Below the pieces are notes generated by a model. It worked only from the letters and a program-made list of their open reading frames with translations, ran no database searches and was not told the origin of the DNA. Made by a program: the position numbers and the translations under genes. A DNA stretch of 64,000 nt from assembly GCA_034440575.1 (NCBI GenBank), contig JAOTOL010001519.1, forward strand, positions 1,103,001-1,167,000. Reading direction: 5' to 3'. Of this stretch, positions 55 to 59,414 are shown in pieces; within the stretch, counting starts at the first letter, position 1, and each line of letters opens with the position of its first letter. This DNA is from Imbricaverruca yamaguchii. Its lineage: Eukaryota > Arthropoda > Thecostraca > Neoverrucidae.

Positions 55-113
55 GTGGTGGTGGTGGATTGGAGTTTAGGGGCGCGTCGACATCTAGGGT
101 CATTTTTCGCCAG
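55..113 (-). mobile_element. Ultra-short retroposon (US element), subtype A
   Basis: On the minus strand this reads GGCGAAAAATGACCC, then GATGTCGACGCGCCCC, then a CCAATCCACCACC tail. It matches other copies in the window at 20815, 34566 and 40393. A 7-bp target-site duplication (AACACCG, 48-54 and 114-120) flanks it. The element carries no coding sequence. An alternative reading is a severely 5'-truncated SINE tail. Confidence 0.7.
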
Positions 114-8780: not shown

Positions 8781-8963
8781 GGGGCGGGGATGGCCGAGTG
8801 GTTAAGGTGTCGGGCTATGGGTACCAAAGGTCCCGGGTTCGACTCTGGCGCCACTCAGGACATTTCCCAATCCCGGGGCCCCCCGGCGAAACAGTGTGGG
8901 CGGCGCCATTAGCCGTTAATGTGCATAAAGTGTGTCGTGAACCAACCAATAAACAAACGACGC
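8781..8963 (+). mobile_element. tRNA-derived SINE, family 1
   Basis: tRNA-like head with A box TGGCCGAGTGG and B box GGTTCGACTCT, a body GCCACTCAGGACATTTCCC, and tail GTGAACCAACCAATAAACAA. A 10-bp TSD TGGTTGCATT flanks it (8771-8780 and 8964-8973). Other copies are 21506-21647, 28502-28673 and 63436-63616. Confidence 0.9.
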
Positions 8964-8989
8964 TGGTTGCATTCAGCTGGCTATGTTGC

Positions 8990-9032
8990 AGTCGATGCGC
9001 CCCTAAGCCCAAATAACCAACCAACCAGCTCA
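8990..9032 (+). mobile_element. US element, subtype B, 5' short
   Basis: AGTCGATGCGCCCCTAAGCC then AAATAACCAACCAACC. Flanked by a 9-bp TSD CTATGTTGC (8981-8989 and 9033-9041). It lacks the GGGCGC left arm found in full copies. Confidence 0.75.
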
Positions 9033-9476: not shown

Positions 9477-9535
9477 ATGGGCGCTGTATGACCGAAGCAG
9501 TCGATGCGCTCCTAAGCCCAAATAACCAACCAACC
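9477..9535 (+). mobile_element. US element, subtype B, full length
   Basis: Starts ATGGGCGCTGTATGACCG, continues AGTCGATGCGC and ends in AACCAACCAACC. TSD of 13 bp AACCAATATTTCC at 9464-9476 and 9536-9548. The arms GGGCGC and GCGC(T/C)C can pair. Confidence 0.85.
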
Positions 9536-9799
9536 AACCAATATTTCCTTGGGGAAATGCAGCGTTCGCTTCCCCTAACCTGACACAGCCTCATTTTCCC
9601 TAGTTAATTTGATGTCCTCGCACCACACGATCGCTTTGAAATAGCCACACGTACTGGTCGCCATGGACTGCGGAACGAGAAAGTGGGGCACCGGGATGTG
9701 GTGTCCTTGATTCTGGATTTTAATGGTGACCCTATGTGGTTTTGATTGGTTATTTGGGCTTAGGGTCCGGTAACTTTGGCTTAGGGTCAACTGCGTTGG

Positions 9800-9971
9800 C
9801 GACGAGTAGTCTAGGGGTAAGTTGCTCGTCTCACACTGGAAAGGTTGTGGGTTCGAGTCTCACCTGTCGGTACTTTTCGCCCGCTACCAATCGGCGTGAG
9901 AAATTGGCGGTACGCTACATGACTCAATGGTCGATGTATCCTAAAACCAACAACCAACCAACAAACCATTG
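9800..9971 (+). mobile_element. tRNA-Val-like SINE
   Basis: The head has AGTCTAGGGGTAAGTTGCTC, an anticodon-arm region CTCACACTGG, and B box GGGTTCGAGTC, closest in look to tRNA-Val. The 3' end ACATGACTCAATGGTCGATG...CCAACAACCAACC resembles the US elements. TSD ACTGCGTTGG at 9790-9799 and 9972-9981. A second copy is 40703-40867. Confidence 0.85.
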
Positions 9972-10480
9972 ACTGCGTTGGTCATACAGCGCCCACTTTA
10001 TATGGTTTTGACTGGAAAGAATCTACCAAAAAGTTTCCCGGTGTCCCCTTAAGTTCGAACGTTTCACCACCTCTGCCAGAGACCGCTTTGCTCCACCCAT
10101 ACACTGCAACGAATCAAGAGTCTAGCTATTTTACCTTGCTTAAATCAGGTACACATCTTTGTTGGCTTTGCACCAAATCAGGTGCGTTTTAGTTGGCTTT
10201 CCGGAGTATTGGGATTGTAAACAGTATCAGCAAAGTACAGAATTTACATGCGTTTTCATGGATTTCTTGGCTACATGTGTCGACAAGTAGAGGAGAGGGG
10301 GATGGAGAAAGATCAAGGACTTCGTTACTATTGTTGCAATCACGTTCAGTTTAATATCTAATATGCAACCAGTTTCATTCTTAATTTGTAACCATTGGCC
10401 CCGTTGATTAAGTCTGGAAGAAATCGTGCAATCTAGTTTCTCCAGTCAGCGAGGCAAACAAGTTGCAACAGGGTTTTTCT
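9972..10480. other. Spacer, nothing recognised
   Basis: No element or gene visible. Confidence 0.35.
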
Positions 10481-10496: not shown

Positions 10497-10619
10497 GTCG
10501 GGGTAGCTCAGTCGGTATGGGTTGGGCTCTTGACTGTAAGAATCCTGCACACGGAAGGCTTGCCTTGCCCAGTCCACCCATTACCAATTGGCGTGGGAAG
10601 CTAACGACGCTATCCGACC
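10497..10619 (+). mobile_element. tRNA-derived SINE-like insertion, short
   Basis: Begins with GGGGTAGCTCAGTCGGTA (A box), followed by TTGACTGTAAGAATC, and ends in GACGCTATCCGACC. A candidate TSD TTGCAGTCGAA lies at 10486-10496 and 10620-10630. The B box is degenerate. Confidence 0.55.
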
Positions 10620-10639
10620 TTGCAGTCGAATGCATTGCA

Positions 10640-11136
10640 TGCTAACCCGAGGCTCTTCTTTCTGTTTGCATTCATTCTACTGGAAAATGGTTGGTGAGGC
10701 CAATTGAGAACCTTTTCACCATATATCTGTATTTGAAGATTGTTGAAGGTTGTCTTCGCTCTGCAAAGATATGCTTAACATAGTTCCTCCATTCGTGAAA
10801 AAAGTTCCTTAACTTCCAGAGCATTGGAAACCTCTACCGGCAGTTATCGCCTCTCAGTAGAGTACTATTGTCCAGCCGCTCTCCATGGTCGGGAGCGCTC
10901 GCCATTGTTCTGGCCAGTTTTTCCCGGTCGGATTATGACAAACGAGGACCTCACATGACTGGCGACATCGTTTCCGCGCAATGCTGCAAAACAGTAGCTC
11001 ACGTTCGCAGTCGCAGAACGCCAGGCTAGAAGCTCCGTGCTCGCCTATCGTCGCAGCGAGCGGGCCTGTCGTGCAGTCTCGACAGCCGTGTGCACGTTTC
11101 AGATGCTGTGAGGCGGGAGTGGGGCCGCAGCTCGCA
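10640..11136 (+). promoter_or_regulatory. PDZD8: PDZD8 5' flank and probable 5' UTR
   Basis: From about 10850 the sequence becomes GC- and CpG-rich up to the start codon, as expected for a promoter or 5' UTR. I see no convincing TATA box. An in-frame upstream ATG at 10981 is open through to the called start, so an N-terminally longer form cannot be excluded. It would bury the signal anchor, so I prefer 11137. Confidence 0.4.
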
Positions 11137-14300: not shown

Positions 14301-17300
14301 GATACCATCCTCATTTGGCGTCCTCACTGCCAGATACCATCCTCATTTGGCGTCCTCACCACCGGATACCATCCTCATTTGGCGTCCTCACTGCCGGATA
14401 CCATCCTCATTTGGCGTCTCTGCCGGAGACCATCCTCATTTGCGGACACCATCCTCTTTGACTGCCGGACACCATCCTCATTTGGCGTCCTCACCGGCGG
14501 ATACCATCCTCATTTGGCGTCCTCACTGCCAGATACCGTCCTCATTTGGCGTCCTCACTGCCAGATACCATCCTCATTTGGCGTCCTCACTGCCAGATAC
14601 CATCCTCATTTGGCATCCTCACTGCCGGATACCATCCTATTTGGCGTCCTCACTGCCGGAGACCATCCTCATTTGGCGTCCTCACTACCGGAACCATCCT
14701 CATTTGGCGTCCTCACTGCCGGATACCATCCTCATTTGGCGTCCTCACTGCCGGATACCATCCTCATTTGGCGTCCTCACTGCCGGATACCATCCTCATT
14801 TGGCGTCCTCACTGCCGGATACCATCCTCATTTGGCGTCCTCACTGCCGGATACCATCCTCATTTGGCGTCCTCACTGCCGGATACCATCCTCATTTGGC
14901 GTCCGCACTCCTCATTTGTGCCGGATACCATCCTCATTTGGCGTCCTCACTGCCGGATACCATCCTCATTTGGCGTCCTCACTGCCGGATACCATCCTCA
15001 TTTGGCGTCCTCACTGCCAGATACCATCCTCATTTGGCGTCCTCACTGCCGGATACCATCCTCATTTGGCGTCCTCACTGCCGGATACCATCCTCATTTG
15101 GCGTCCTCACTGCCGGATACCATCCTCATTTGGCGTCCTCACTGCCAGATACCATCCTCATTTGGCGTCCTTCCAGATACCATCCTCATTTGGCGTCCTC
15201 ACTGCCGGATACCATCCTCTTTGGGCCGGAACCATCCTCATTTGGCGTCCTCACTGCCAGATACCATCCTCATTTGGCGTCCTCACTGCCGGATACCATC
15301 CTCATTTTGGCGTCCTCACTGCCGGATACCATCCTCATTTGGCGTCCTCACTGCCGGATACCATCCTCATTTGGCGTCCTCGCTGCCGGATACCATCCTC
15401 ATTTGGCGTCCTCACCGCCGGACACCATCCTCATTTGGCGTCCTCACTGCCGGATACCATCCTCATTTGGCGTCCTCACTGCCAGATACCATCCTCATTT
15501 AGCGTCCTCATTGCCGGATACCATCCTCATTTGGCGTCCTCACTGCCAGATACCATCCTCATTTGGCGTCCTCACTGCCGGATACCATCCTCATTTGGCG
15601 TCCCTGCCGATACCATCCTTCACTGCCAGACACCATCCTCATTTGGCGTCCTGAACCGCTCGCCACCATCTCCAGGTACGATGTCAAAACCACAACAAGG
15701 CAGAAGCGCAACCGGAATGCCATGCTTAGGTCGGCATCAATCATTGGCCGGTTTGTCGCTGGGGCCACTTAATCCTATCGGGGGGGGAGCACTAAGTTCC
15801 CCGCCGTGTTTATGTATGCAACTCATAAATGCTTAGGGCGATTATCCTGGGACTTCGTGGTGATTTTCCTTGACAATCGTTTTCACAGGGTACCGTTTTT
15901 TAGCCTGAGTTTCTGAGCGGTTGAAAGGGGTGGAATATTTTTTATAGCTCTGTGTCCAACTGCAGAGGCATCGAGAGAAGTTTGCTTCGGTTGTCCCCTT
16001 TTAACACGCGCACGTCCGGGGGCAGATATCTGCCCCTGCCCCCGGTAGTAGTTCACGAGGTATATTTTTGCACTTTTAATTCAGTAAGATTATGAATTTT
16101 GGCACTGCACGAAGGTTGTACTCGAACACCACCTGCGATTCGTATATTCTGCCATGCACTTTCAGTATCCGTTTTTCTACCATATCAGCATATTGTGTAG
16201 GTGCGTACCAATACAGATGCACCCAATTGGAATTCAATGCATGGGTATGTAATATCGGTAGATGTGGAGGTCCATTTGTAAATCAATGGAATGCTTATGC
16301 TTAAAGCTTAGAATACTTAAAGCCGATTTGACAAGCGTGAAGGTGGTTATTGTCATGGTGGTCTCCTTGTGGTGTGATTTTTTGCAAATTTCGGTCCATT
16401 CCACAGTTAACCGACTTTCGGGCCAGGTTCTGTTGCGCTTCACCCGACGGCCCTTCTCACACTGGGCATACAGCTTCATCGGCGACCCCACGATCGAGTT
16501 GGAGGCGGAGTCGCAGTTCCAGGGTCGGCCCCTGCCGCGCGTTACCGCCGTTATCGTGCGACAGGTGAGTCGGCTTCCGTAGCAGCCGTGGCACGGGCTC
16601 TAGATGGCACGTACACTCCCCTCTCTGCGCTGTACACGGACTCCGGAGTGTCCCGGTTTGTGCTGTCGGGGACTAGGTGTGTGTGTTTGTTGAGTGCGAT
16701 CCCCACGGAGCCATTTACTAGAGCATGTTGGAAATACATTTAGCTGTGAGAAGCGTTGAGAAGCTGTGAGGCCGTCACCAGGTGGTGCATGTCGAAAAAT
16801 ACGTCTTTTTAACACTAGCATTTCAGTTGTGCAGTTTTGCATCGCGATCACACAAATAGTTATATAGTTGTATGTTCCCTCCAGCGCTCATATAATAAGG
16901 ACGCTACCAGTCTTATTTGGCGTGCGTGGACCAAAGGATGATTGGTTGCCTACCTATGTTTAACCGGGGATCATTGAAAGCATAGACAAGAGTTGGTTGG
17001 AGGAGAACCTAAATAGCCGAATTTTTAGGTTTCTGGGCGTGAGCTAGTGTGCTATTTGCACTAACAAAAGCTCACAAAGAATGACTACAAGATGTAAGTA
17101 AATTTGAAATCAACGGTACCCAGGAGCTCAGCTAAAAATAAACTCAATCTAGCCCAATTGAATATCATTTTTCAGCTGGACATATTACCCACATTGGTAA
17201 TACAGACTCACATTGATATTCTGATAGACATAGCTAACAATATATACATATTTGAGGTGCTGAGCGGTATTATAGACAATATGTCACAGCGAGGACATGC

Positions 17301-20300
17301 TGGGGAGGACATTACATGTTCGGAATCGAAGCTTGCTTATAGCATGTCATGTTAAAATCGTTATTTTTGGACTCTTGTGAGCATGGGAGGGGGAGGGTCT
17401 CTCACATCCCAAAAGATGAAGCTTCACTTACGCCCACTAGCTTATAGCTCATAGACCTTGACTCAAGAAGTGGAAGGTCACGTGTATGAGATGAGTCAGT
17501 AAAAATAATGCGGCGGTAAGTTTGTTGTGATGAGGTACCCATGAATCGACTGTCAATCTGCATGAAATGAAGATGTTGGTCGATACGACAAGGCCGACAA
17601 ACTTGTGCCAATTGTAAGCCCAAGGAGTTACCCGTAGTAAGTTATTGACTGCCATGTTCATAAGTCATTCGTTATCGAATGGGTGAGATCTGGGGCAGAG
17701 CTGTTACGTTTTAGCAGCTTTTCGTTTATGGAGCTATGGTCACGATGAAATCACCACAATCGAAGCTCCCGATTCCCAAATAACTAGCTCATCCACAAAT
17801 TATTTCCGGTAAAGATACAATGACGAATCGCATCTATATACTGAACAATTGAATCATTAGCATCATAATCGGGAAAAATTGGCACAAATATTGAACTATC
17901 ACATGAATCTTTGCTCGGTATCGTAATGGAGCGAGATGTCGATTGCAAAGAACCTGTCTGCCGTTACCTGTCACGTGTGACAGGTAACGCTGCGCGTCGC
18001 CGTGCATGGCAGCTGTGAGCATTAAATGTCTTGCACCTTCGATGCTGCAACCTCTTGTCGGCAGATAAAGCGCACGCTGCGGAAGCGCCACACTCTGCCG
18101 AACTACAAGCTGCGCTACAAGCCCTTCTTCACGTCCCGGCTGCAGCAGCTGGAGCGCGATTCACAGCTGCCAGAGCAGCCGGTAGCTGTGGGCCAACTGC
18201 TCGAGGTGACCGTGAAGCGACTCTCCCGTCTGCGACCCAGTGGTGTGCTGCACCATCTTTACTGCCGTCTCGCTCTCGGTACGTCTGTGGCGGCCCAGCT
18301 GCTCCCTTCACGGCCCCTACTGCCGCCTCGCTCTCGGTACGTCTGGGACGGCCCAGCTGCTCCCTTCACGACCCCTACTGCCGCCTCGCTCTCGGTACGT
18401 CTGGGACGGCCCAGCTGCTCCCTTCACGGCCCCTACTGCCGCCTCGCTCTCGGTACGTCTGGGACGGCCCAGCTGCTCCATTCACCATCCATACTGCCGT
18501 CTCGCTCTCGGTACGTCTGGGATGGCCCAGCTGCTCCCTCCACGACCCCTACTGCCGTCTCGCTCTCGGTACGTCTGTGGTGGCCCAGCTGCTCCATCCA
18601 CGACCCCTACTGCCGCCTCGCTCTCGGTACGTCTGGGACGGCCCAGCTGCTCCCTCCACGGCCCCTACTGCCGCCTCGCTCTCGGTACGTCTGGGACGAT
18701 CCAGCTGCTCCCTCCACGGCCCCTACTGCCGCCTCGCTCTTGGTACGTCTGGGACGGCCCAGCTGCTCCCTCCACGGCCCCTACTGCCGCCTCGCTATCG
18801 GTACGTCTGTGGCTATCCAGGTGCTCCACGGCCCCTGCTGCCGTCTCGCTCTCGGTACGTCTGGGACGGCCCAGCTGCTCCATTCACCATCCATACTGCG
18901 GCCTCGCTCTCGGTACGTCTGGGACGGCCCAGCTGCTCCATTCATCCATACTGCCGCCTCGCTATCGGTACGTCTGGGACGATCCAGCTGCTCCCTCCAT
19001 GACCCCTTGGGCGCTGTATGACCGAAGCAGTCGATGCGCCCCTAAGCCCAAAAAACCAACCAACCAACCTCCCACGGCCCCTACTGCCGCCTCGCTATCG
19101 GTACGTCTGTGGTGGCCCAGCTGCTCCCTCCACGGCCCCTACTGCCGCCTCGCTATCGGTACGTCTGTGGATGGCCCAGCTGCTCCCTCCACGCTGGCTC
19201 CATTCCCTACTCCATGCTGCCGCCTCGCTATCGGTACGTCTGTGATGGCCCAGCTGCTCCATCCACGACCCCTGCTGCCGCCTCGCTCTCGGTACGTCTG
19301 TGGCGATCCAGCCTGCTCCACGGCCCCCTGCCGCCTCGCTCTCGGTACGTCTGTGGTGGCCCAGCTGCTCCCTCCACGACCCCTGCTGCCGCCTCGCTAT
19401 CGGTACGTCTGTGGCGATCCAGCTGCTCCCTCCACGACCCCTGCTGCCGCCTCGCTATCGGTACGTCTGGGACGGCCCAGCTGCTCCCTCCACGACCCCT
19501 ACTGCCGCCTCGCTCTCGGTACGTCTGTGGTGGCCCAGCTGCTCCCTCCACGGCCCCTACTGCCGCCTCGCTATCGGTACGTCTGGGACGGCCCAGCTGC
19601 TCCCTCCACGACCCCTGCTGCCGCCTCGCTCTCGGTACGTCTGGGACGATCCAGCTGCTCCCTCCACGGCCCTTGCTGCCGCCTCGCTATCGGTACGTCT
19701 GGGACGGCCCAGCTGCTCCAATTCACCATCCATACTGCCGCCTCGCTATCGGTACGTCTGTGGTGGCCCAGCTGCTCCCTCCACGGCCCCTACTGCCGCC
19801 TCGCTATCGGTACGTCTGTGGCTGGCCAGCTGCTCCTCCACGACCCCTACTGCCGCCTCGCTATCGGTACGTCTGTGGCGATCCAGCTGCTCCCTCCACG
19901 GCCCCTACTGCCGCCTCGCTATCGGTACGTCTGGGACGATCCAGCTGCTCCCTCCACGACCCCTGCTGCCGCCTCGCTCTCGGTACGTCTGGGACGATCC
20001 AGCTGCTCCCTCCACGGCCCTTGCTGCCGCCTCGCTATCGGTACGTCTGGGACGATCCAGCTGCTCCAATTCACCATCCATACTGCCGCCTCGCTATCGG
20101 TACGTCTGTGGTGGCCCAGCTGCTCCCTCCACGGCCCCTACTGCCGCCTCGCTATCGGTACGTCTGGGCGGCCCAGCTGTCCTCCTCCACGGCCCCTACT
20201 GCCGCCTCGCTATCGGTACGTCTGTGGCGATCCAGCTGCTCCCTCCACGGCCCTTGCTGCCGCCTCGCTATCGGTACGTCTGGGACGATCCAGCTGCTCC

Positions 20301-23300
20301 CTCCACGGCCCCTACTGCCGCCTCGCTATCGGTACGTCTGTGGTGGCCCAGCTGCTCCCTCCACGACCCCTGCTGCCGCCTCGCTATCGGTACGTCTGGG
20401 ATGGCCCAGCTGCTCCCTCCACGACCCCTACTGCCGCCTCGCTATCGGTACGTCTGTGGTGGCCCAGCTGCTGCTCCCTCCACGACCCCTACTGCCGCCT
20501 CGCTCTCGGTACGTCTGGGACGGCCCAGCTGCTCCCTCCACGGCCCCTACTGCCGCCTCGCTATCGGTACGTCTGTGACGGCCCAGCTGCTCCCTTCACG
20601 GCCCCTACTGCCGCTTCGCTCTCGGTACTGTCGGCCAGCGCCGGGTGACCAGCCGAGCTACCGGAGTCACTGATGGACCGGTCATCCTCTGCCCAGTAGC
20701 CGAGAGGATGGTGTACGCCGTTGATACGGGTTTGTCACCTCTGTCGTACATCGTAAACCGGAGCCACCAGTTTCCGCTTCGTGAATCCTTCATTGGTTGA
20801 GTGTAGGAAGTGGATGGGCGCAAAATGACCCTAGATGTCGACGCGCCCCTAAACTCCAATCCACCACCGAGTGTAGGAAGTGGACAGCTTAACCTGATCC
20901 CTTCACCTTTTATCGGAGTTACCTATGGATATACTTTCCTTTCTTCTGGAGTGGGGGCGACCCCGGAACACTACTTTGCCCCCACCAAATTTGTTCCAAA
21001 TTTGTTCGCAAGTTTTCTTCATGGTTCGGTCGGCAACCCGCCGTCCAATGCTGTTCATATGTTCATTTAGGAGCATAATTCGGCAAGGCCCAACCAAAAT
21101 TTCACGAATGCATTGATGACCGGGACTCTTTATAGGGAATCAGAACATTAATAAAGAGTTGGCAATTTAGTATGTCAGCATTTCGCGAATGACATTGAGT
21201 TCCTCCGTGAGTATTTTCGCTTGGAGCTTGAAAATAAAGACTAGCCGGGATCGCAAGTTTGCAATTTCTCTTAGGGCTGAACCATCATAGAAGTGCATGG
21301 TCCCAATTTCCTCCTCAAGATTCTCAATATGGTTCTGCTTACACCGAGGTCTCCGGGCGTATTGTGAAGTGTTAATAGTCTGTGCTAGATTCATACATGA
21401 AGTCATTTTATTATCTACAGTCTTGCTGGTGAAATGCTTCAGTCACACACTTGCCTTTTCAACAGCGTTCAATGTCATCTTGGTCGGACATGGATCTGGA
21501 CCTGCTGTTTATTGTTTATTGGGTGGTTCACGACACACTTTATGCACATTCACGGCTAATGGCGCCGCCCACACTGTTTCGCCGATGGGCGGCGGGATTG
21601 GGAAATGTCCCGAGCGGCGCTAGTGTCGAACCCGGGACCTTTGGCACGGATCTGGACCTGCCCTCCCCCATACAACACTTTTTGAGTTGTTCCAAACAGT
21701 TATTCATTGAGCGATTTCGATTAACTTCTTGACAAAAATCTGGTCATTTTTCCTCAGCTTTTTATGCTTGGCACATTTGAGCAAACACCCACGAATTACC
21801 ATTCGCCGCCCCGGCAGCTCAGTTGGTTAGAGCGTTGGCCTGCACCGGTCTTCCCTGTCCTGGCAACGCAGGGTTCGAGTCGCTTCGCGCGCTCGCATTT
21901 AGCCCCCGGCCGGGAGAGTCAGTTGGCAGCTGGCCCGATAAGGCCAAGGACAAACTACCGGGCGGCCGTGTCGGTGCATTGGCGGCACGTTAAACTTTCG
22001 GTCTAAAGTATGCCGTTGAACTGGAATTCATGGATCGGGTGGTGGGGCCGGGGTTCACGCAACAGACTCTGCTTAGCAATAGAACCCTGGCTCATAAAGC
22101 CACCCCAGCAAAAAAAAAAAGAGTCGTATTGATTTTTTAACGCTTCTACATGGCTTCGTATTACAAACGTGTTAGATGTGGTTTTAGGGAGTTCGGCATT
22201 TTGTAGCTTAGAGCGAAGAAATTAATTGAGACGGCGTGGGGACTCGAGAAGCTGTCACAATCACGACAGGCGCTCATCCAAATTGCCATTTGGCGGCCTC
22301 GTCCATTGCGCTGCCAAACGGCTTACAAGGTACGGGTGTGGCGGTGGGCTGTATTATTCCGTCACGGAGCTTGCCTGTTAGCGACTGAGGCCTTGGTGGT
22401 GAGCTGTGTTGCTGGTGTGGCGCGTGACGGCCGCAGCCTGACCGTGCGGCCGTCAGGTGCCGACCCGCTGCTGCCGGACACCTCGCACGTGAGCTGGAGC
22501 CGGCACGAGGTGGCCGTGCCGGCGCACCCGGGCCAGGCGGTCGGCCTCCTGCTGCGCGACACCTTCATCATGGAGAGGCAGCGCAACTGCATCACCATCT
22601 TCATCGTGGTTCACAACGCGCCCGCCTACAAGGCCGGCCTCAAAGGTGACGTCGGTCGGGTCGAGTCCGGGCGACGAGCCGCAGCGTGCCGTGCTGAGGG
22701 TGGGGGGCAGACCAGCTGGCTGGCGGCTATGGGGCGTCACTGTCGCAACAGCTGCTGGGGGTGCTACAGCACCGAAGTGACGCCTTCGTGGCGACGCTGA
22801 GCGACCCGGTGCTGGTTGTGACGCTTGTGTTCAGGTTGTGGTGTTCCGCTGTCTTTTTATTTCTTCCTGATGTTATTTTTGGTTGTCGATCATATGTGGT
22901 GGTGGTACGACTGGTTCGGCGTGCCTGCGTATTCATTTTCTGCCTTGGTGCAATCCGCATTGTGTGCAGTTTTGCTGTCCCCTCTTGGCAGTTCCGTGCT
23001 CCTCTACCTCCCTCTCCCGCCATCCTCGGCAGTGACCTCAACGTCCCTCGCATGGATATAATATGCATCTCAATTCCCGACACTCAGCAATAGCCTGTTG
23101 AGATGCTTGCTAGTTCCATCTCCGACCTGCACCTCCCCCGACGATCCTATCACTGATCCGTACCTTCCCTGCCAATCCAACCACTGACGTGCACCGCCTT
23201 GGCGGCCCCGTCACTGGCTACCTCCTCTGACTGTCCCACCACTGACCTGTACCTGGTGCCAGTCCCGCCACTGACCTGTACCTGCCACCAGTCCAGCCAC

Positions 23301-26300
23301 TGACCTGTACCTGAGATGTCGACGCGCCCCTAAACTCCAATCCACCACCACCACTGACCTGTACCTGTTGTCAGTCCAGCCACTGACCTGTACCTGAGAT
23401 GTCGACGCGCCCATAAACTCCAATCCACCACCACCACTGACCTGTACCTTCCGCCAGTCCCACCACTGACCTGTACCTGCTGCCAGTCCAGCCACTGACC
23501 TGTACCTGCCGCCAGTCCAGCCACTGACCTGTCCTACACCAGTCCAGCCACTGACCTGCACCTGCTGCCAGTCCAGCCACTGACCTGTACCTGCCGCCAG
23601 TCCCACCACTGACCTGTACCTGCCGCCAGTCCAGCCACTGACCTGTACCTGCTGCCAGTCCAGCCACTGACCTGTACCTGCCGCCAGTCCAGCCACTGAC
23701 CTGCACCTGCTGCCAGTCCAGCCACTGACCTGCACCTGCTGCCAGTCCAGCCACTGACCTGTACCTGCCGCCAGTCCCACCACTGACCTGTACCTGCCGC
23801 CAGTCCCACCACTGACCTGTGCCTGCCGCCGGTCCCACCACTGACCTGTTCCTGCCGCCAGTCCAGCCACTGACCTGTACCTGCCGCCAGTCCCACCACT
23901 GACCTGCACCTGCCGCCAGTCCAGCCACTGACCTGTACCTGCCGCCAGTCCCACCACTGACCTGTACCTGCCGCCAGTCCAGCCACTGACCTGTACCTGC
24001 CGCCAGTCCAGCCACTGACCTGTACCTGCCGCCAGTCCCACCACTGACCTGTACCTGTTGTCAGTCCAGTCACTGACCTGTACCTGCCGCCAGTCCCACC
24101 ACTGACCTGTACCTGCCGCCAGTCCCACCACTGACCTGTACCTGCCGCCAGTCCCACCACTGACCTGTACCTGCCGCCAGTCCCACCACTGACCTGTACC
24201 TGCCGCCAGTCCCACCACTGACCTGTACCTGCCGCCAGTCCCACCACTGACCTGTACCTGCTGCCAGTCCCACCACTGACCTGTACCTGCCGCCAGTCCC
24301 ACCACTGACCTGTACCTGCTGCCAGTCCAACCACTGACCTGTACCTGCCGCCAGTCCAGCCACTGACCTGTACCTGCTGCCAGTCCCACCACTGACCTGC
24401 ACCTGGTGCCAGTCCCACCACTGACCTGTACCTGCCGCCAGTCCCACCACTGACCTGTACCTGCCGCCAGTCCAGCCACTGACCTGTACCTGCCGCCAGT
24501 CCAGCCACTGACCTGTTCCTGCCGCCAGTCCAGCCACTGACCTGTACCTGGTGCCAGTCCCACCACTGACCTGTACCTGCCACCAGTCCAGCCACTGACC
24601 TGTACCTGCCGCCAGTCCCACCACTGACCTGTACCTGTTGTCAGTCCAGTCACTGACCTGTACCTGCCGCCAGTCCCACCACTGACCTGTACCTGCCGCC
24701 AGTCCAGCCACTGACCTGTACCTGCCGCCAGTCCCACCACTGACCTGCACCTGCCACCAGTCCAGCCACTGACCTGTACCTGCCGCCAGTCCCACCACTG
24801 ACCTGTACCTGTTGTCAGTCCAGTCACTGACCTGTACCTGCCGCCAGTCCCACCACTGACCTGTACCTGCCGCCAGTCCAGCCACTGACCTGTACCTGCC
24901 GCCAGTCCCACCACTGACCTGTACCTGCTGCCAGTCCCACCACTGACCTGTACCTGCCACCAGTCCAGCCACTGACCTGTACCTGCCGCCAGTCCCACCA
25001 CTGACCTGTACCTGTTGTCAGTCCAGTCACTGACCTGTACCTGCCGCCAGTCCCACCACTGACCTGTACCTGCCGCCAGTCCAGCCACTGACCTGTACCT
25101 GCCGCCAGTCCCACCACTGACCTGTACCTGCTGCCAGTCCCACCACTGACCTGTACCTGCCGCCAGTCCCACCACTGACCTGTACCTGCTGCCAGTCCCA
25201 CCACTGACCTGTACCTGCCGCCGGTCCCACCACTGACCTGTCCTGCCGCCAGTCCAGCCACTGACCTGTACCTGGTGCCAGTCCCACCACTGACCTGTAC
25301 CTGCCACCAGTCCAGCCACTGACCTGTACCTGCCGCCAGTCCCACCATGTAAAATAACCACAGCCAAACACAGTTAATGAGTTGGCTATATCCACTAATT
25401 TTGACATGATTGAGACATACAAGCTAAATATAAATATACTAATAAAACACTGACCTGTACCTGTTGTCAGTCCAGTCACTGACCTGTACCTGCCGCCAGT
25501 CCCACCACTGACCTGTTCCTGCCGCCAGTCCAGCCACTGACCTGTACCTGCCGCCAGTCCCACCACTGACCTGTACCTGCCACCAGTCCAGCCACTGACC
25601 TGTACCTGCCGCCAGTCCCACCACTGACCTGTACCTGTTGTCAGTCCAGTCACTGACCTGTACCTGCCGCCAGTCCCACCACTGACCTGTACCTGCCGCC
25701 AGTCCAGCCACTGACCTGTACCTGCCGCCAGTCCCACCACTGACCTGTACCTGCTGCCAGTCCCACCACTGACCTGTACCTGCCACCAGTCCAGCCACTG
25801 ACCTGTACCTGCCGCCAGTCCCACCACTGACCTGTACCTGTTGTCAGTCCAGTCACTGACCTGTACCTGCCGCCAGTCCCACCACTGACCTGTACCTGCC
25901 GCCAGTCCAGCCACTGACCTGTACCTGCCGCCAGTCCCACCACTGACCTGTACCTGCTGCCAGTCCCACCACTGACCTGTACCTGCCGCCAATCCCACCA
26001 CTGACCTGTACCTGCTGCCAGTCCCACCACTGACCTGTACCTGCCGCCAGTCCCACCACTGACCTGTACCTGCCGCCAGTCCAGCCACTGACCTGTTCCT
26101 GCCACCAGTCCCATCACTGACCTGTACCTGCCACCACCTGTCTCCCAGCCCATCACTGACCTGTACCTGCCACCAGTCCCATCACTGACCTGTACCTACC
26201 GCCAGTCCCACCACTGACCTGTACCTGCCGCCAGTCCCACCACTGACCTGTACCTGCCGCCAGTCCAGCCACTGACCTGTACCTGCCGCCAGTCCCACCA

Positions 26301-32300: not shown

Positions 32301-35300
32301 GTTCGTGCTGGCTGCCGGCGCGACCGACGGCGGCCAGCCGGAGCCCGTCGCCGACGAGGACGGCGCGCGCCAGCTCGGCAGGATGGACGTGGAGGACTCC
32401 GAGCCCGAGGAGGACGACGAGACGCTCGAGATTCGAGTCGGACACAGGTTCGCCCGCATGAAGTTCACGGCGTCCACAAAGTGCGACTTCTGCAAGAGGA
32501 AGGTGGGTAGCGTGCGTCAAGGGAGTGACTGAGGGACGGTAGTTCACCAACGTGTGCAAATGTGATACGTCTATGTTCTTGCCTGGAACAATCACCGATC
32601 ATTTATCCGGCTTCCAATTATACACAAGCTCTTCCCGATTTTAACCCGTTTGGTACGTGAAACATTACTGCTTTTACTTACGTTACTGCTTACTGCTAAA
32701 CATTATTGCTTCCATACGCGCCCCTAAACTCCAATCCACCACCACCACTGTTTTTCCTTACCTCATATGTAAGAACAGCGCGGCGTCTGCGTATTGTTGA
32801 CGTACTGTATATTAAAAATATGTATGCCTCGGTAGCATGTGCGTCGAACAAAAGCAGTTCCAGTGCATACCAGCATTCACTAATTTTCTGGATCATTGCC
32901 GATGGGTGCTGCTACGGTGTGCTATGCTTTGTGCCGCTATGTCGACTGCACTCTTCGCAGGACTTCTTGCAAGACCCCGATATTTTGGAACTCCCCAATT
33001 TTAAGAAGGAAGTATACCCATGGCTGAAAAATGCTTCCACATCTTCACCGGAAGATGAAAAAGATGCCATATTTCGCCAAAGGTGTCCAGATATTTAGTA
33101 TGGCTAACAAGGATATGTAGAAAATACAACGACTTAGTCCATTTTCCGTCCATCTTCTTCAAACTTATTTTTCGGTAATCCCAAAACATTAGCAGCCATT
33201 GTTCTAGTGTGTTTTTCTCATAAGCTAGAACTAGCATTGCTAGTACACTGGAAGGTCAACTGTTGCTCTTATCGATAGTTTTTTTGCCGGGTGTGCATAC
33301 AGAGTATGTTTTTGTCTTGTCATAATGTCCTATTCCATTGACATCACTACTATAGCCCGGATTGTTGAAACGGTCATTGCTGACAAATTTGTTAGCAACG
33401 TTCTTCTATGTCTTAGCCCCAACACGGATGTTGTTCATTTGCTCCAAAATAGCCAGCCAGCCATTGCTTTATTTGTAAGGCTGACGCAATTAATGCATGC
33501 TGGCAAGTTCGGATGATGTACAATTGACCGGAGATGCTTTTCATACGCCTGACCGTCGTCTTCCTGGGCAGATCTGGTTCAAGGATGCGTTCCAATGCTC
33601 GGCCTGCTCGATGACGTGCCACAAGAGCTGTATCGCTCGCTGCCAGACGCAGACCACCTGCTCGGTAAGTGAGGCCTCCGGGTCACTAGCTTAAAACAAA
33701 GCAAGCTTCTTGCGGCAGTTTTCCCGCGATGCCCGCCCTTCCTGCCAGGGTGAGGGGGGGGCCACCCCATACCCCTCCCTTGTGTGTGTCGTAAAAACAA
33801 CAACTCCGAGGTAGCCAAGGCATATCTGTATATGTTCCAAGTTGCTGATCGGTGTCCGCCACATCGCAGTGCCTGGTGCGGCGCTCTGCGCTGCTCAGCC
33901 AGCGTCCATGTGTTGATGGCCCCTCTTGACCTTCGCTGGCTGTGGCGGGTCACGTGGTACGGCCGCCGGTCAGTGGTGTGCCAAGGCCCCCAGCGCTCAG
34001 GAGTCGCTGAGTAGTTACCGACCAGGTTGGGCTGTCCCGCTGCTCTGAGCAGGGTGATTGAGTGTACGTCGACAGCCGGGATAGCGGCCGACTGCGACTC
34101 GTTGCAATTCGAAAATCCAATTAATAGAGGCCAGTTGGCAGCAATTCTTCCGAACCAAGCATCACGGTTCAAACGAGGCTTCCCTGGATATCGCAAGACG
34201 CAGAAGCCCAACTGTGGCTCCCAGTTGAAGACCGACTTATCTGCACGCGTTGATGTTGGCCGCCAGCGAGTTGTCTAAACGCTCTGGTAGCAATTTGTGT
34301 ATTTAATTGGGCTTTATGTCAGTATTCTAGTTGATTCGATACACGCTTCGACGTCTGATCCCCTCCCGCCTTTAGATTCAGTGGTGCCGTGCTAGGCGAG
34401 CACGTATCCCAACTCCAGCCCGGGTCCCTCGCCGATGCGCCCCTAAACCCTAATAACCAACCAACCGACCGGATCCCTCGCAGACGGAAGTGAACGGCGA
34501 CTGGGTGTTCTGGAAGCTGCAACTGTTCCCCTACCGGGAATTGACATCGTCTCCCCGCCAGGCGGGTGGGTGCAAAATGACCCGGATGTCGACGCGCCCC
34601 TAAACCCAATTCCCACCACCACCCGCCAGGCGGAGGTGAGGATGTTCTGAAAGCAGCAACTGTTCCCCTGCCGGGAATTGACATCGTCTCCCCGCCCCAG
34701 GCGGAGGTGAACCGCGGCTGGCGCGACTCGGTCAGCGACGCTCACCTGCCGGAGATAGTGACCAGCTCTGAGGACGCCGACCAGCCGGCCGACAAAAAGG
34801 TGCGTCCTCTGCATGTGGCTACGCTCCCCCTCCCCCCCCTCCGCTGTACCATGTCGGCAGCCGGCCAGGCCGCTACGTGCGGCCGGGTCACCGGGGTCAT
34901 GTCCCTCACCGACGGTGACTGAGCTGGAGGAAAAACCCAGCCGTCGCGATTTCTTCGTGTCAACACATTCTGCTAAGAAGCGTTGGTTGAATGTCAGCCT
35001 TATTCCCGCATAGTTGTAAATACCATCCCGGTTTTCCCATCCCGGAATCAGTATTTTTTTGTTCGACCGCAGCGCGTGGTCGTCTCCGATTACTCCTCTC
35101 CCCGAAAAGACAGCCTGACTCGCGTTTGGCAGCGCACTAGGGAACACTGAAATCCAATCCGCTAACGGACAGTCGTGTGACATCCCGGCACCTGGCGACT
35201 TCACGTTCCGAACCTCCACCTCACCAAATACCCTCCTGCATCACGGAACGGCGCGCGATCTCCACCACGCCGCTCGACTCATCCTGCACCAGAGTACGCC

Positions 35301-38300: not shown

Positions 38301-41300
38301 CTTCCTAGTTTGTACACTTCGTGTGCATAGGAGGCACCAGTAATGGCCACCCCCCCCCCATAAGAAGACCCTGGCTCTGCCACTAATGGTCTGGGTGTAG
38401 TTGGTACGTGGCCTGCGCATGTGACGCACAGCTGGGTATGGCGCCGTGGCGTGGTGTCGTGCCTGCAGTGGTTCCGCGCGGTACTAACGCTCCGTTGTGG
38501 CAGCGGCGGCGGCATCTCAACAGCCTGATCGCGTCGCTGTCGTCCTCCAGTCTGAAGCGCACGGGGTCCGCGCAGAATCTGGCGCCGCCAACAGCTGCCC
38601 AGCAGCGAGACATGTCCACCAGCCTCCCGCCGTCCCCCCAGCGATCCCCTGTCGCCAGCAGAAAGGTGGGTCCACAGAGCCTGGCGCCTCCGACAGCCGA
38701 CCTACAGCAAGACATGTCCCTCCCACCGTCCCCCCAGCGGTCCCCTGCCGCCAGCAGAAAGGTGGGTCCACAGAGCCTGGCGCCGCCGACAGCCGACCTA
38801 CAGCGAGACATGTCGCCTCCCGCCGTCCCCCCAGCGGTCCCCTGCCGCCAGCAGAAAGGTGGGTCCACAGAGCCTGGCGCCGCCGACAGCCGACCTACAG
38901 CGAGACATGTCCCTCCCGCCGTCCCCCCAGCGGTCCCCTGCCGCCAGCAGAAAGGTGGGTCCACAGAGCCTGGCGCCGCCGACAGCCGACCTAACAGCGA
39001 GACATGTCCCTCCCGCCGTCCCCCAGCGGTCCCCTGCCGCCAGCAGAAAGGTGGGTCCACAGAGCCTGGCGCCGCCGACAGCCGACCTACAGCGAGACAT
39101 TTCCCTCCCGCCGTCCCCCCAGCGGTCCCCTGCCGCCAGCAGAAAGGTGGGTCGGCCTGGCGCCGCCGACAGCCGACCTACAGCGAGACATCCGCGTCCC
39201 CGCGGTCCCCGCCGCCAGCAGAAAGGTGGGTCCACAGAGCCTGGCGCCGCCGACAGCCGACCTACAGCGAGACATGTCCCTCCCGCCGTCCCCCCAGCGG
39301 TCCCCTGCCGCCAGCAGAAAGGTGGGTCCACAGAGCCTGGCGCCGCCGACAGCCGACCTACAGCGAGACATGTCCACCAGCCTCCGCCGTCCCCCCAGCG
39401 GTCCCCTGCCGCCAGCAGAAAGGTGGGTCCACAGAGCCTGACCTAAGCGAGACAGCCGTCCCAGCGCCGCCGACAGCCGACCTACAGCGAGACATGTCCC
39501 TCCCGCCGTCCCCCCAGCGGTCCCCTGCCGCCAGCAGAAAGGTGGGTCCACAGAGCCTGGCGCCGCCGACAGCCGACCTACAGCGAGACATGTCCACCAG
39601 CCTCCCGCCATCCCCCCAGCGGTCCCCTGCCGCCAGCAGAAAGGTGGGTCCACAGAGCCTGGCGCCGCCGACAGCCGACCTACAGCGAGACATGTCCACC
39701 AGCCTCCCGCTGTCCCCCAAGCGGTCCCCTGCCGCCAGCAGAAAGGTGGGTCCACAGAGCCTGGCGCCTCCGACAGCCGACCTACAGCGAGACATGTCCA
39801 CCAGCCTCCCGCCGTCCCCCCAGCGGTCCCCTGCCGCCAGCAGAAAGGTGGGTCCACAGAGCCTGGCGCCGCCGACAGCCGACCTACAGCGAGACACGTC
39901 CTTTCCGCCGTCCCCCCAGCGGTCCCCTGCCGCCAGCAGAAAGGTGGGTCCACAGAGCCTAGCGCCGCCGACAGCCGACCTACAGCGAGACACGTCCCTT
40001 CCGCCGTCCCCCCAGCGGTCCCCTGCCGCCAGCAGAAAGGTGGGTCCACAGAGCCTGGCGCCGCCGACAGCCGACCTACAGCGAGACATGCGCCGCCGAC
40101 AGCCTACAGCGAGACATGTCGCCCCGCGTCCCCTTTCCGCCGTCCCCAGCGGTCCCCTGCCGCCAGCAGAAAGGTGGGTCCACAGACCGGGGGGGGCTGG
40201 GCCGCCAGCCCCCCAGCGGTCCCCTGCCGCCAGCAGAAAGGTGGGTCCACAGAGCCTGGCGCCGCCAACAGCCGAGCTACAGCGAGACATACCTGCCTCC
40301 CCACTCCCTCTACTGGTCCTTTGCGTCCAGTAGGAGGGTGGTTCCATCAGGGGTTCCCTGCCTCCGACATGAGGGTGAATCCCTCAGCGGTTCATGGGCG
40401 CAAAATGACCCTGGTAGTCGACGCGCCCCTAAACTCCAATCCATCATCCCTCAGCGGTTGCCGCCAGTGTGTATGCAAGCTCACCACCTGCGCACACACC
40501 AACGCACAAGCATCCCTGCGCACACGAACACGCACACACGTATACATGCATTGACACATGCACACATACATTCATACACACATACATGCATACATCCATA
40601 CATGCACACGCGCGCGCACACACGTACACCCACACGAGCACGCAAGAGAAGCGGCACATGGAAGATGTGGCTGGCTAGGCGTGTCGCCTGTGCATCTCAT
40701 TCGGTTGGACGAGTGGTCTAGGGGTAAGTTGCTCGTTTCACAATCGAAAGGTTGTGGGCTCGAGTCTCACCTGTCGCTACTCTTCGCCCGCGACCAATCG
40801 GCGTGAGAGATTGGCGACGCTACATGACTCAACGGTCGACGTGTCCAAAAAACCAATAACCAACCGACATCTCATTCCGTGACGTGCGTGCCCGCCTGAC
40901 GCGAGCGGCTCCTCTTCAGCAGAACTCGCTGGCAACGTCCCCGTTCGCCGCCGCCGGCGTCGAGTGCGACAGCGACGAGGAGCTGGACGCGGCGCTCTCC
41001 AACATGCAGCGCTGCGCCAACACGGAGAACCTGGTGCTGGCAGCGCGCGAGCTCGGCTGCCAGCTGTACGTGGAGATGGAGCCGGCGGCGCGCCGCGACC
41101 GGCTGAACAACATGGTGGGTGGCCGCCGGCGGCGGCTCGGCGGGGCTGTGGTGGCGGCTGCCGGCGGCGGGCGGCTCAGTCCCGCCGCCCGGGTAGCCCG
41201 TGCGGACACGGTTGGATTACGTCACCTCTCGGATGGCGTTGTGGGGCCGTGGTGCCGTTGCTATTGCGGTAGCCCCAGAGGTCTATTTTTGGAGCTCCGT

Positions 41301-44035: not shown

Positions 44036-46433
44036 CGGCACAGCGTAGCGCGACTGCATTCTCGGTGAGCGCGAATAATCGTCCGGCTCCCTGAGCTACT
44101 GTGAAGCGACTATCTCTCCCTAACAGACATCCGAACGAGCGTCGCCGTCGGTATATGAGCGCTGTTCAGCCTGCGTCGCCTCCACTCTGGGGGGGGGGGG
44201 GAGGGGTAGCGCATCGACTGCCGTAGTCATGCACCTCCATTCTAGGTTGCAAATGGATCTCTCGAATCGGCGGCATTGTGGGCGATTCTGGCCGTGTGGC
44301 GAGACCATCCCGGTGCTTCCTGTGAGTGTGTGTGAGTGCTGGTCTGTGATAGGCGCCACAGCCCGCCAGGTGGCCCGAATGGACTACCCGGCGAGATGCT
44401 GTGCGTGGTGGAGGTGCCGCGTGGTGCCAGCGCGCGGTCTGCCAAAGTCGATACTGGGAGGTAGGAGTTCTCGGCCTGGTGGAGCTTGGGGTGCAGTTGA
44501 GTCTCTCTGTCTCTGAACCCTTTTTACCGAGTCCGCCCGCGATCAATCAGCGTGAGAGGTTGGCGACGCGATATCAGTCGCATGGGTTTGAAAAGGACCC
44601 AAGGTTCTTCTTCGCCGAACTTTTGCTCGCTGGTGTTTTTGCATATTCAGTGCGAACGTGACTGTGATGCTCCGGATATCATGAAGTGTGACATGCCGCG
44701 CTTCTTGGTCGCGGTTCTAGTGGATATTAACGGATCGAGTATGCGAGCTGCGCGGCATAGCGGTCGTGGTGCAATCTCTATGCTGCACATAGTAATTGTT
44801 TGCCCTGGCTAGCTTTTTGTATGGGTTAAGGTCTCTTACTTAATGTCCGATCATGCATCTGCTGTACACAGTTGGGTGAGTTGGTAGCAATGTCTTTGTA
44901 CGTATCATTTCTTCTGTGGAGGTTAACAATCCTGCATTTGCAGCATCCTGATATCAACTTACCCTTTTGTACCTGTGAGATATGATGAGTCTGGGATACT
45001 GCCAAGTAGTCATTTCACTGTGTGTCCAGTCAGAAGTGCGACTCTGCCGTCTGCGCGAGCTTCAACGGCACACCGTCCGCACCTGATGTACGCTGTGGTC
45101 GATATCAGCAGCAGCTCAGAGTTAGGAGAGGAGAGGGCTTGAGAAAAGGGTGGAGGCTATTTTTAAGCTTTTTCTTTGCATACAACACCAGCACTGTTTT
45201 GTGAAGGTAAGGCATATTATGGTAATCCGGATGAAATTAAGATGTCTCCATAGATCAGTATTTTGGGTTTTGGTTTCCAGAAGATGATAAAATGGCGCAA
45301 TCGTTTCAGATTGATTTGTTTGCCATTTACGAAACGTAGCATACACACAGCAACAAACACACACACACGCGCGCGCGTGGGTACAGCACACACGTTCAGC
45401 TTATGAGATGGTACGTTGACGTACAACTTATCAGGTTGTGCGTTGTACGTGCCGCTACATATGAGTCAGAGCACAATCATTATATCTTTGTTGGTATTTC
45501 AGGTTCAGGTTGGTATTCTCTGAAACACCGAGGTGAGAACGGACTTTTATAAAATTTCATAACGCATGGATTTATACCTACTGTTATACCTACTGAGTGC
45601 ACACAGCTGGCTTGTGCATATAAGCACCGAAAACTGACGAGCTAGTTTGGACCTTGAATGTCACGTTTTCGGAGCCTGAAGATACGGGCCGAAATCAGAG
45701 TTTTTGGGGGGATGGGTTTGGTTTTCCAGAAACGGAACACCACTACCGCAGCACGCGGAAGCACACCCGAGGGCCTGCCCGACTGATAAAAGTTGTCGGG
45801 TCTTGAAAACGTGACAAAGCGCTTCAGCCCCCGGTTCTACAAATGTTTTAGACAATTAGAAAGCAGGGACTTAGCCCGTTCAAGACCTTCAGAGAATGTT
45901 TTGGGGTTTTGGTTTCCAGAAGATGATAAAATGGCGCATTCCGGAAGAGCGTGTCCCTCCCTGGGTTTCTGGGCGCACGAAATATATTTTCGTGTGCAGA
46001 TGTGCCCGTATAGAAATTCAAGGATATTCTGTTCAGGGGGGGGGGGGCACGGCGTGAAGTTGCACCTACGACCCCGCTCCCTATGCCACTCGATATTTAT
46101 TTCGCATGATTTGTAGTATTACCTGTACAAATCGCTTTCGTCTTCAGTCTGTTTGTGTACACTGACGAAGGCACCTCGCTGCAGTGTTGTCTGATGGACT
46201 GTCAATTAATGTACTTGCATTTCAGTAGTCCACAGGGTCCGCGGATCCCATTTCCTGCGAAACCTCACCGACTCCGCGTACCCTACCATCGAACCTCAGT
46301 CATCTGCCCTCGGTGGTGCGGTGTGTGTGTCGCCGTTCAGTGATCATGTCGTCGGGAACGCCGGCGACCCTCGCTCTAATACACACGATCGTGTGGCGCG
46401 CGTTGTGCCTATGTCTGGGTCCGGCAATACAGG
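44036..46433. other. Intergenic, no gene supported
   Basis: A 33-bp segment (GTTTTGGTTTCCAGAAGATG and on) occurs at 45268 and 45903. A short CA/CG run lies at 45357. A G12 run at 44189 and a G11 run at 46037 are present. No domain-bearing open frame. Confidence 0.45.
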
Positions 46434-46440: not shown

Positions 46441-46505
46441 GGGGCGCCGCATGACCTCTGCGGTCGATGCGCCCCTAAACGCCAATAACCAACCAGCCAA
46501 CCAGC
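46441..46505 (+). mobile_element. US element, subtype B
   Basis: GGGGCGCCGCATGACCTCTG, CGGTCGATGCGCCCC, ACGCCAATAACCAACCAGCC. TSD TGCGGCC at 46434-46440 and 46506-46512. Confidence 0.78.
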
Positions 46506-50531: not shown

Positions 50532-50586
50532 TGGGCGCTGTATAACCACTGCAGTTGATGCGCCTTAAACCCAAATAACTAACTAA
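50532..50586 (+). mobile_element. US element, subtype B, full length with 14-bp TSD
   Basis: TGGGCGCTGTATAACCACTG, CAGTTGATGCGCCTTAAACC, CAAATAACTAACTAA. TSD GATGCAATAGCGTA (50518-50531) and GATGTAATAGCGTA (50587-50600), one mismatch. Confidence 0.88.
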
Positions 50587-57796: not shown

Positions 57797-59414
57797 GTCA
57801 GTTGTAGCTGGCTCCGCGAGGAGTCGAGTCGGTCGATTGACCCGGCACTGGCGGCGGGTCAAACATGTCCTCTCGTCTGCCGAACATTCGCGACAACTTA
57901 AAGCACGTGAAGTTAACGCCAAATAATTTTGAACAGCGGTCGTTTCATCAATTGTCTTTTGGCGAACGAAAGAAAGGCAAAAGAAGTTATAGTAGGGCAG
58001 GCGTGATTGTCGTCAGAGTTACCTCATGTTTGTCGATAGTTCTGACAAAGACGTATAGGTGCACACAAATTTGACCTAGTAGCCGAAGAATGAAGATATT
58101 TAATGTCCTGCCATTGGTAGCTCAGTGGTTAAGTTGAGCGTCTGGCACGCCGGAGGTACGGGGTTCGATTCCCCGCGATGCCCGCCTTTCCTGTCAGGGT
58201 GAGAGGCAGGTGGCGCCGTATAGCCTCAGCAGCTGAGTGCGTGGTAAAGCCACAATCTAAGTAGTTAATGTCCGTAAATGGGGGAGACGGTTGGTTGCTA
58301 ACTAGCATATTATGTCATTGTTATTATATTTCACTTTCAAATATTGGCATGTTAGCGTTAAAAACATGCATCAATAGTGCTCCGCAAAGGTACAAAGGTC
58401 CCTCATGTTCAATATTTCAAGAAAAAAAAATCGTTCTAGAATTGACTAAAGAATTTCCTTACCAAATTTTAAACATGTATCAATACAAAATGACTGCAAC
58501 TTGAAATGCACCACAGTGCATGCGACGCCGGCGCAGAGTGGCTCTCACCCGCCTCCGCCGACGGGCAGCCGGGACGGCTTGGTGGCTGCGGTATGGCCTC
58601 GATACGCACCTAGAGCATGGTTTTATATGTGCTCTGAGACCGCAGCTCACGGCACCGTCGATTGCCATTTTATGGGCCAGTATTATTGTACAGTATTATC
58701 AGTGTTTATTTCCAAGCAGCATGGTACTATTAGTTTTTGTGTACTGATTGATATCAACTGATAGGGAAAATGTGTCCCTATGTGTGGTATGAGGAGGCAT
58801 TGCATCCAGCTGTGCTAGGTTTCCCAGAATTTTGCACTCCAGCACGAGAAGCCGGATTCAGAATTCAGCCGTCTTTCCCAGCATTGATAAGTAATAGTCA
58901 ATTTCGGGATCGTGATGGAGTGGTTGTGGTTTTTGAATGCAAAATGTATCCTTTTGGGGCATCGCCATTGTCCAGTTTGCATTTTCCCCAAGTTTTTTTC
59001 GGGAAGCCGGATCCAGCATTCATTCAGCCCTGTCTTTCCCAGTATTGATAAGTAACGGTCTGTTTCTGGATCGTGATTGAGCGGTTGTGATTTGTCGCGA
59101 TCCCCAGCGCTCAGGAGGGGTACAAGTCGATATCTGGCGGCGTGGTGGAGCGGTCGCGCCAGCTGGCCCAGCTGACGGACCAGCTGGACACCACCAAGCA
59201 GGAGCTGGAGGAGCGCGGCACCAGCATGACCGACGGCACGCCCCTCGTCAACATCCGCAAGGCGCTCAACCGCATCAAGCAGGAGGTGCAGGGCATGGAC
59301 GTGCGCATCGGCGTGGTGGAGCACACCCTGCTGCAGTTCCGGCTGCGCGACAAGGAGGCGCTCCAGCTCGAGGCCAACATCCAGTTCACCAGCAACAGTA
59401 TCGGCCTCTTCTAG
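56631..59414 (+). CDS. IFT57: IFT57: intraflagellar transport complex B subunit (whole gene span)
   Basis: IFT57 (Hippi) is a peripheral IFT-B protein needed to move cargo along cilia. Two coding exons (56631-57796 and 59108-59414) join in phase 2 to give about 490 residues (human 429). Order: Lys/Glu-rich N-terminus (about 2-60), calponin-homology-like domain (about 100-225), acidic Glu/Ser linker (about 240-265), then coiled coil to the C-terminus. The match is firm: AWLLRKVGR, EQPQEYDDPNVTIS, DFPPSKLKQGCGE, LESTTNTEEWRLEMERVLPQ, DKISNREKYLNSQLE and SMTDGTPLVNIRKALN all have direct human counterparts. The ATG has A at -3 and G at +4. Confidence 0.97.
57797..59107. other. IFT57: IFT57 intron
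   Basis: Holds a tRNA-derived SINE at 58110-58265 and a diverged direct duplication of about 95 bp (58851-58945 and 59001-59097: GAAGCCGGAT, GTCTTTCCCAG, TTGATAAGTAA, GGATCGTGAT, GCGGTTGTG). The second copy runs to within 10 bp of the acceptor. Confidence 0.7.
58110..58265 (+). mobile_element. tRNA-derived SINE, family 4
   Basis: TTGGTAGCTCAGTGGTTAAG (A box), GGGGTTCGATTCCCCGC (B box with intact T-stem), then GATGCCCGCCTTTCCTGTCA and GGCGCCGTATAGCCTC. The acceptor stem does not close, so it is not a tRNA gene. A body fragment occurs at 33722-33780. Confidence 0.75.
59108..59414 (+). CDS. IFT57: IFT57 last exon: C-terminal coiled coil
   Basis: Acceptor CGATCCCCAG at 59107; the first C completes Ser from exon 1. 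It encodes AQEGYKSISGGVVERSRQLA, LEERGTSMTDGTPLVNIRK, EVQGMDVRIGVVEHTLLQFR and ends NSIGLF, stop TAG 59412. This is the conserved C-terminal IFT57 coiled coil (human MEEKGSSMTDGAPLVKIK...RIGIVEHTLLQ). Confidence 0.97.

Follow-up and report, generated by a model that had tools for sequence, protein, structure and literature searches.

The proteins of ZfL2-1 and ZfL2-2, two long interspersed elements (LINEs), bind their own 3' stem-loop, an experimentally established requirement for retrotransposition (PMC4176376, available sections), and LINE tails can be borrowed by short interspersed elements (SINEs) (PMC3747384, in the part available). Among the cases found, the closest published promoterless LINE parasites are the R2 SIDEs of Drosophila, which, like the R2/R1 hybrid SIDEs, are not transcribed by RNA polymerase III (Pol III) and have kept LINE-bound 3' sequences; the hybrids show 14-bp duplications at the R1 site (PMC3414825, accessible text). 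Here we describe a family of short retroposon-like units of ~54-60 bp in 64,000 nt of the barnacle Imbricaverruca yamaguchii (assembly GCA_034440575.1, contig JAOTOL010001519.1, positions 1,103,001 to 1,167,000, forward strand; this whole stretch is called the window). BLAST and covariance model searches gave 15 independent insertions, or one per 4.3 kb within the window. We consider it fairly probable that the units are tail-only retroposons, a form, without head or promoter, of the 3' recognition tail found on tRNA-headed SINEs of this genome; by analogy with known systems, their insertion was probably carried out by a stringent-type LINE.

The short units resemble tRNA-derived SINEs with LINE-type 3' tails (stringent type) in the 3' hairpin, the short repeat tail, the flanking duplications and the presumed action of a LINE enzyme in trans, but they are without the tRNA head, the Pol III boxes and the body, and measure ~55 bp as against 147-161 bp for the three SINEs measured in the window. 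R2 SIDEs have a 5' ribozyme and are site-specific for ribosomal DNA (rDNA), whereas the short units have no ribozyme match and are dispersed (PMC3414825, accessible text). The LINE 3' tails of ZfL2-1/ZfL2-2 and UnaL2, likened here in layout, also combine a 3' stem-loop with repeat units; in zebrafish the tail ends a LINE of 4-5 kb, whereas here it stands alone (PMC4176376, available sections). Mammalian tailless retropseudogenes are likewise retroposed pieces of small RNAs, the short units being 3' tails without a head (PMC3747384, in the part available). No headless tail-only family was found in the titles and abstract beginnings searched, which cover few subscription journals and are weak evidence of absence. 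According to the portion available of the Pollicipes genome paper, there is no comprehensive barnacle repeat library (PMC8917513), and the family may therefore simply be unnamed.

The original prediction started from a 54-bp unit at 20815 with a perfect 16-bp flanking duplication, which was confirmed and is used here as the type copy (Table 1). It also listed full-length relatives with duplications of 12-14 bp, and these were all recovered: at 9478 (13 bp), 34567 (12 bp) and 40395 (14 bp) the duplications are exact, and at 50532 (14 bp) there is one mismatch. The copies listed as shorter were indeed truncated at 8987, 34433 and 41561, but those at 46441 and 60-113 (minus strand) turned out to be of full or nearly full length, with duplications of 11 bp (one mismatch) and of merely 7 exact bases, respectively. 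Array copies at 19008 and 23313 stood; the third, at 23396, is a tandem duplicate of 23313, so that the 13 places of the earlier list amount to 12 independent insertions. Three copies were added: 32716 (truncated), 9744-9993 minus (split by a SINE) and 44187-44232 minus (diverged).

Full copies share the layout GGGCGC-n4-UGAC-n6/7-GUCG-n2-GCGCCC, which forms a single hairpin, and most of them end in (ACC)n or (AACC)n. Subfamily A, with the ACC tail, comprises 60-113 minus, 20815, 23313, 32716, 34567 and 40395; subfamily B and its relatives, mostly with the AACC tail, comprise 8987, 9478, 9744-9993 minus, 19008, 34433, 41561, 44187-44232 minus, 46441 and 50532. The covariance model was trained on eight full-length short units, and these eight of the 15 match it by construction. 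The weakest members were 44187-44232 (E 0.012) and the two halves of the split 9744-9993 copy (E 1.5e-4 and 0.0043).

We scored the best repeat around each copy (match +1, mismatch -2): 13 of 15 copies reached a score of at least 7 and nine of 15 at least 10, compared with 3.65% and 0.70% of random non-array places (n = 4000, same slack), a control that is partly post hoc because the element ends were set after the sequence had been read. The two copies missing score 7 were 32716 and 19008. When the two array copies were left out (23313, inflated by its array, and 19008, a miss), 12 of 13 reached it. An earlier and less strict scoring, applied to 13 copies, agreed with this but at weaker p-values (0.09 for 60-113; no signal for 19008 and 32716). 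Within the minisatellites the insertions interrupt the regular spacing of array units, which is 133 rather than 58 at 19008 (75 extra bases) and 54 rather than 29 at 23313, as insertion plus target duplication would give; the same two arrays have further irregular spacings (53-61 and 75; 39, 56, 57 and 131). Variable duplication length, a repeat tail and 5' truncation are hallmarks of the target-primed reverse transcription pathway. The part of the original prediction that read the units as retroposons thus held in so far as they are insertion-like and have their own duplications of variable length.

The 5' ends are sharp. A common start near TGGGCGC had been claimed, and it was found in nine of the 15 copies; the other six are truncated inside the unit, and none extends further upstream. 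Under a model of uniform starts, the probability that nine of 15 fall into one 7-nt bin is 2.5e-5, the bin having been picked after the data were seen. Among the 300-bp stretches upstream of the 15 copies no common sequence was detected at E up to 0.5, save array units and coordinate overlap.

As the original prediction stated, the units have neither a tRNA head nor a coding sequence; they leave no room for a protein. No Pol III boxes were found in the eight full copies scored, with 2-3 mismatches to box A and 3-4 to box B, the same as in random 54-mers; by the same scoring six SINEs showed 0 mismatches to box A and 0-2 to box B. A tRNA-like pair of box A and box B was also absent from the 120 bases upstream of nine full copies (5-7 mismatches; three SINEs had 0-2, and most of 400 random stretches had 5-8). 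ARAGORN at default settings predicted 0 tRNAs in the window and missed the SINE heads too, and is therefore uninformative; with relaxed settings it called 324 genes in the window (noise), gave weak scores of 33-34 to two SINEs, and made on these two an intron-bearing call scored 64 on the wrong strand. The tRNA-like heads are hence identified by box A/B match, spacing and inspection.

Pairing in the hairpin was examined in an alignment of six short units and two SINE tails, in which 98.7% of cells were paired (31-57% in slid controls) and the covariation score was reached by nine of 500 shuffles. With three divergent rows added, chosen by eye, the 11 tails gave 93.6% paired cells and nine double changes; the covariation score was reached by 0 of 500 shuffles, the number of double-change pairs by 41 and the number of pair types by 31. 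The copy at 50532 has a compensatory A-U pair in the inner stem.

In one respect the original prediction is not supported as worded, for the unit is not unrelated to SINEs: tRNA-headed SINEs in the window have a related hairpin and AACC tail (Table 1). A covariance model built from short units only matched the SINE tails at 40814-40865 (E 3e-7) and 9909-9959 (E 4e-5). In alignments of these two tails with a B unit, 0 of 2000 shuffles were as good in each case when the repeat tail was included, and the values were weaker (0.0015 and 0.011) when it was excluded; the shuffles preserve base composition only. The model matches and these alignments indicate that the short unit is most likely a lone SINE/LINE 3' recognition tail. 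The spacing of box A and box B is 43 nt in the 9800 and 40705 SINEs, and the 9800 SINE sits nested in the tail-only copy 9744-9993. The end of the 58110 SINE is probably a related hairpin with an AACC tail as well. Two side observations concern SINEs: a diverged SINE-body piece at 44534-44579 is ~85% identical to the 40705 SINE and continues into a different 3' sequence, and a second SINE family with boxes A and B lies at 8785-8961 (+), 28498-28675 (+) and 63440-63615 (-), with the tail GAACCAACCAATAAACAAAC, a head that looks tRNA-Leu/Ser-like by inspection, and duplications of 15 (one mismatch), 18 and 13 bp.

The favoured explanation would work as follows. An RNA of ~55 nt would consist of one hairpin and, in most copies, a short tandem repeat; the reverse transcriptase of a stringent-type LINE would bind the hairpin in trans and nick the DNA, and the RNA would be copied by target-primed reverse transcription, giving duplications mostly of 11-16 bp. 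Because the copies have no Pol III boxes and no upstream box pair, the RNA was probably supplied by a small number of source loci, or by longer transcripts that were shortened to the hairpin base by trimming or cutting. We infer that the 5' end was set by such trimming or cleavage of a longer parent transcript, since read-through RNAs would carry variable upstream sequence and none was seen.

Several observations weigh against this explanation. The 5' peak is drawn from 15 copies in one window, and extra junction bases in four of nine full copies (by inspection G, A, CA and AAG, mutually inconsistent) make the start uncertain by as much as 3 nt. No duplication was found at 32716. In the eight-row alignment the number of pair types was reached by 500 of 500 shuffles and that of double-change pairs by 61 of 500, and the short units alone have weak covariation, with one double change (55 of 500 shuffles). 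The short-unit model matched the 58110 SINE at merely E 0.13 and did not match the 10577 fragment at E up to 5. Hairpin identities are 62-94% among the six short units and 47-73% between these and the three SINE tails plus the 10604 fragment (for the diverged copy at 44239, 55-73% to the six); the ranges overlap, so that identity alone cannot define the short units as one lineage. No partner LINE with the hairpin tail was found in the window, and no convincing hairpin of this kind was found in the stretches searched near two reverse transcriptase fragments (stretches 4300-5600 and 50600-52000; best 5.4 bits, E 0.52).

If the copies were simply 3' ends of a longer SINE or LINE that had lost its 5' part in the usual way, its long copies lying outside the window, the six copies cut inside the unit would be as expected, as would the presence of SINEs with a related tail; truncation is the usual state of LINE copies (PMC3747384, in the part available), and the hairpins of subfamily B share 67-73% identity with the 58110 SINE tail, compared with 62-79% to other short units (for 50532, 73% to this tail and 62-67% to subfamily A). 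We nevertheless consider this unlikely, since the clustering of starts near the hairpin base, with no longer copy, argues against random truncation, and the three aligned SINE tails are without the GGGCGC/GCGCCC stem; a parent of the TGGGCGC hairpin was not found within the window. A possible, although doubtful, reading is that the units form an independently persisting lineage of ~55 nt in which one hairpin both marks the 5' end of the RNA and is the whole LINE recognition signal; the hairpin would then set the 5' end by blocking a 5' exonuclease or by guiding a cut.

A fixed cut could also come from tRNase Z or another activity that releases the 55-nt RNA as the 3' trailer of a tRNA-fused precursor. 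This would suit a sharp promoterless 5' end and the tRNA-headed relatives, and it is one route to the tail-only explanation, with which its probability overlaps; taken as such it appears quite improbable, since no good combination of box A and box B turned up within 120 bases upstream of any of the nine full copies. Formation of the 5' end by a self-cleaving ribozyme (HDV-like or hammerhead), as in R2 SIDEs, is suggested by a stem placed right at the 5' end with CUAAG after it, an arrangement that resembles parts of hepatitis delta virus (HDV)-like folds. Rfam gave 0 matches in the window at the gathering score, the weak matches of two copies at E up to 10 included none to a ribozyme, and the second pseudoknot stem of an HDV-like fold cannot form (inspection); we regard this origin as very improbable. 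We give hardly any credence to a small DNA transposon (miniature inverted-repeat transposable element, MITE) with GGGCGC/GCGCCC inverted ends: the inverted arms are present, but the 3' arm lies ~20 or more bases inside the element end, the duplications are not of one length, copies are cut short at the 5' end, and short repeats form the end of most of them.

Table 1. Short units, their type-copy duplications and related SINEs in the window.
Feature	Position	Strand	Description	Basis or remark
Type copy, subfamily A	20815..20868	+	full length	sequence, duplication scoring
Left target-site duplication of type copy	20799..20814	+	16 bp, perfect, GAGTGTAGGAAGTGGA	
Right target-site duplication of type copy	20869..20884	+	16 bp, GAGTGTAGGAAGTGGA	
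Subfamily A	60..113	-	near full length; weak duplication, 7 exact bases	5' start uncertain by a few bases
Subfamily A	34567..34623	+	full length; 12-bp exact duplication; one extra G at 5' junction	
Subfamily A	40395..40446	+	full length; 14-bp exact duplication; extra CA at 5' junction	
Subfamily A	23313..23349	+	5'-truncated; within 29-bp minisatellite	
Duplicate of 23313 insertion	23396..23432	+	tandem duplicate (83-bp unit), not independent; same 29-bp array	
Subfamily A	32716..32746	+	5'-truncated immediately before hairpin 3' arm; no duplication found	
Subfamily B	9478..9535	+	full length; AACC tail; 13-bp exact duplication	
Subfamily B	19008..19068	+	full length; within 58-bp minisatellite	
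Subfamily B-like	46441..46500	+	full length; 11-bp duplication, one mismatch	
Subfamily B	50532..50585	+	full length; 14-bp duplication, one mismatch	
Subfamily B-like	9744..9993	-	split by nested SINE at 9800; duplication TCAAAACCATATA/TCAAAACCACATA	
Subfamily B	8987..9021	+	5'-truncated; 16-bp duplication, two mismatches	
Subfamily B	34433..34466	+	5'-truncated; 13-bp duplication, one mismatch	
Mixed A/B	41561..41608	+	without about the first five bases; 13-bp exact duplication	
Diverged copy	44187..44232	-	5'-truncated; C-rich tail; duplication AGAATGGAGG/AGAGTGGAGG	weakest member (E 0.012)
tRNA-headed SINE	9800..9958	+	box A + B; related 3' hairpin and AACC tail; 10-bp duplication	
Second copy of 9800 SINE	40705..40865	+	89% identical; 10-bp duplication	
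Third tRNA-headed SINE	58110..58256	+	same hairpin layout, UGAC/GUCG replaced by UAGC/GCUG	
SINE body and hairpin fragment	10577..10642	+	no head found	

The window also contains two decayed non-LTR (long terminal repeat) reverse transcriptase fragments of one family, at 5509-6510 (-) and ~51837-52886 (-). They are 88% identical over 744 aligned columns; their similarity ends within the coding region, and the second has a frameshift and is truncated. The reverse transcriptase scan comprised 375 rows from the best 120 of 3936 homologues, and at E up to 10 the ten best of 864 rows outside 5400-6600 were inspected. Pattern scans for the unit gave 1, 0 and 0 stretches in viral contigs and 0 in prokaryote contigs; the sole viral-contig match, 19 bases within an open reading frame on a contig that looks bacterial or phage-like, was taken as chance. 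IFT57 is encoded by the long open frame at 56604-57926 (Pfam E 2.3e-100); its top three relatives, among the best 120 of 292, are from Pollicipes pollicipes (89% identity over 66% of the query, and a second with 74% over 74%) and Amphibalanus amphitrite (72% over 77%). By these relatives the window would most likely come from a thoracican barnacle, probably a stalked one. Long minisatellites with units of 28-102 bp are dense (14176-15619, 18260-20628, 23233-26683, 30549-32048, 38623-40090, 43338-44021 and 59947-62525), and two of them host tail-only insertions. A perfect GGAC tetranucleotide array of 166 copies at 11483-12148 is open in all three plus frames.

If the family extends genome-wide, it would be a natural case in which dispersed retroposition needs nothing but a LINE-type 3' hairpin, the head, the promoter and the body all being dispensable; it would also offer a natural minimal substrate on which the RNA choice of a LINE enzyme could be tested. 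In barnacles, where the catalogue of repeats is poor, the short units could also serve as small insertion markers. Should the units prove to be an independent lineage in which subfamilies A and B each evolve a hairpin of their own, they would rank with the smallest dispersed retroposons. The short unit may be about the least RNA that is still copied back into DNA.
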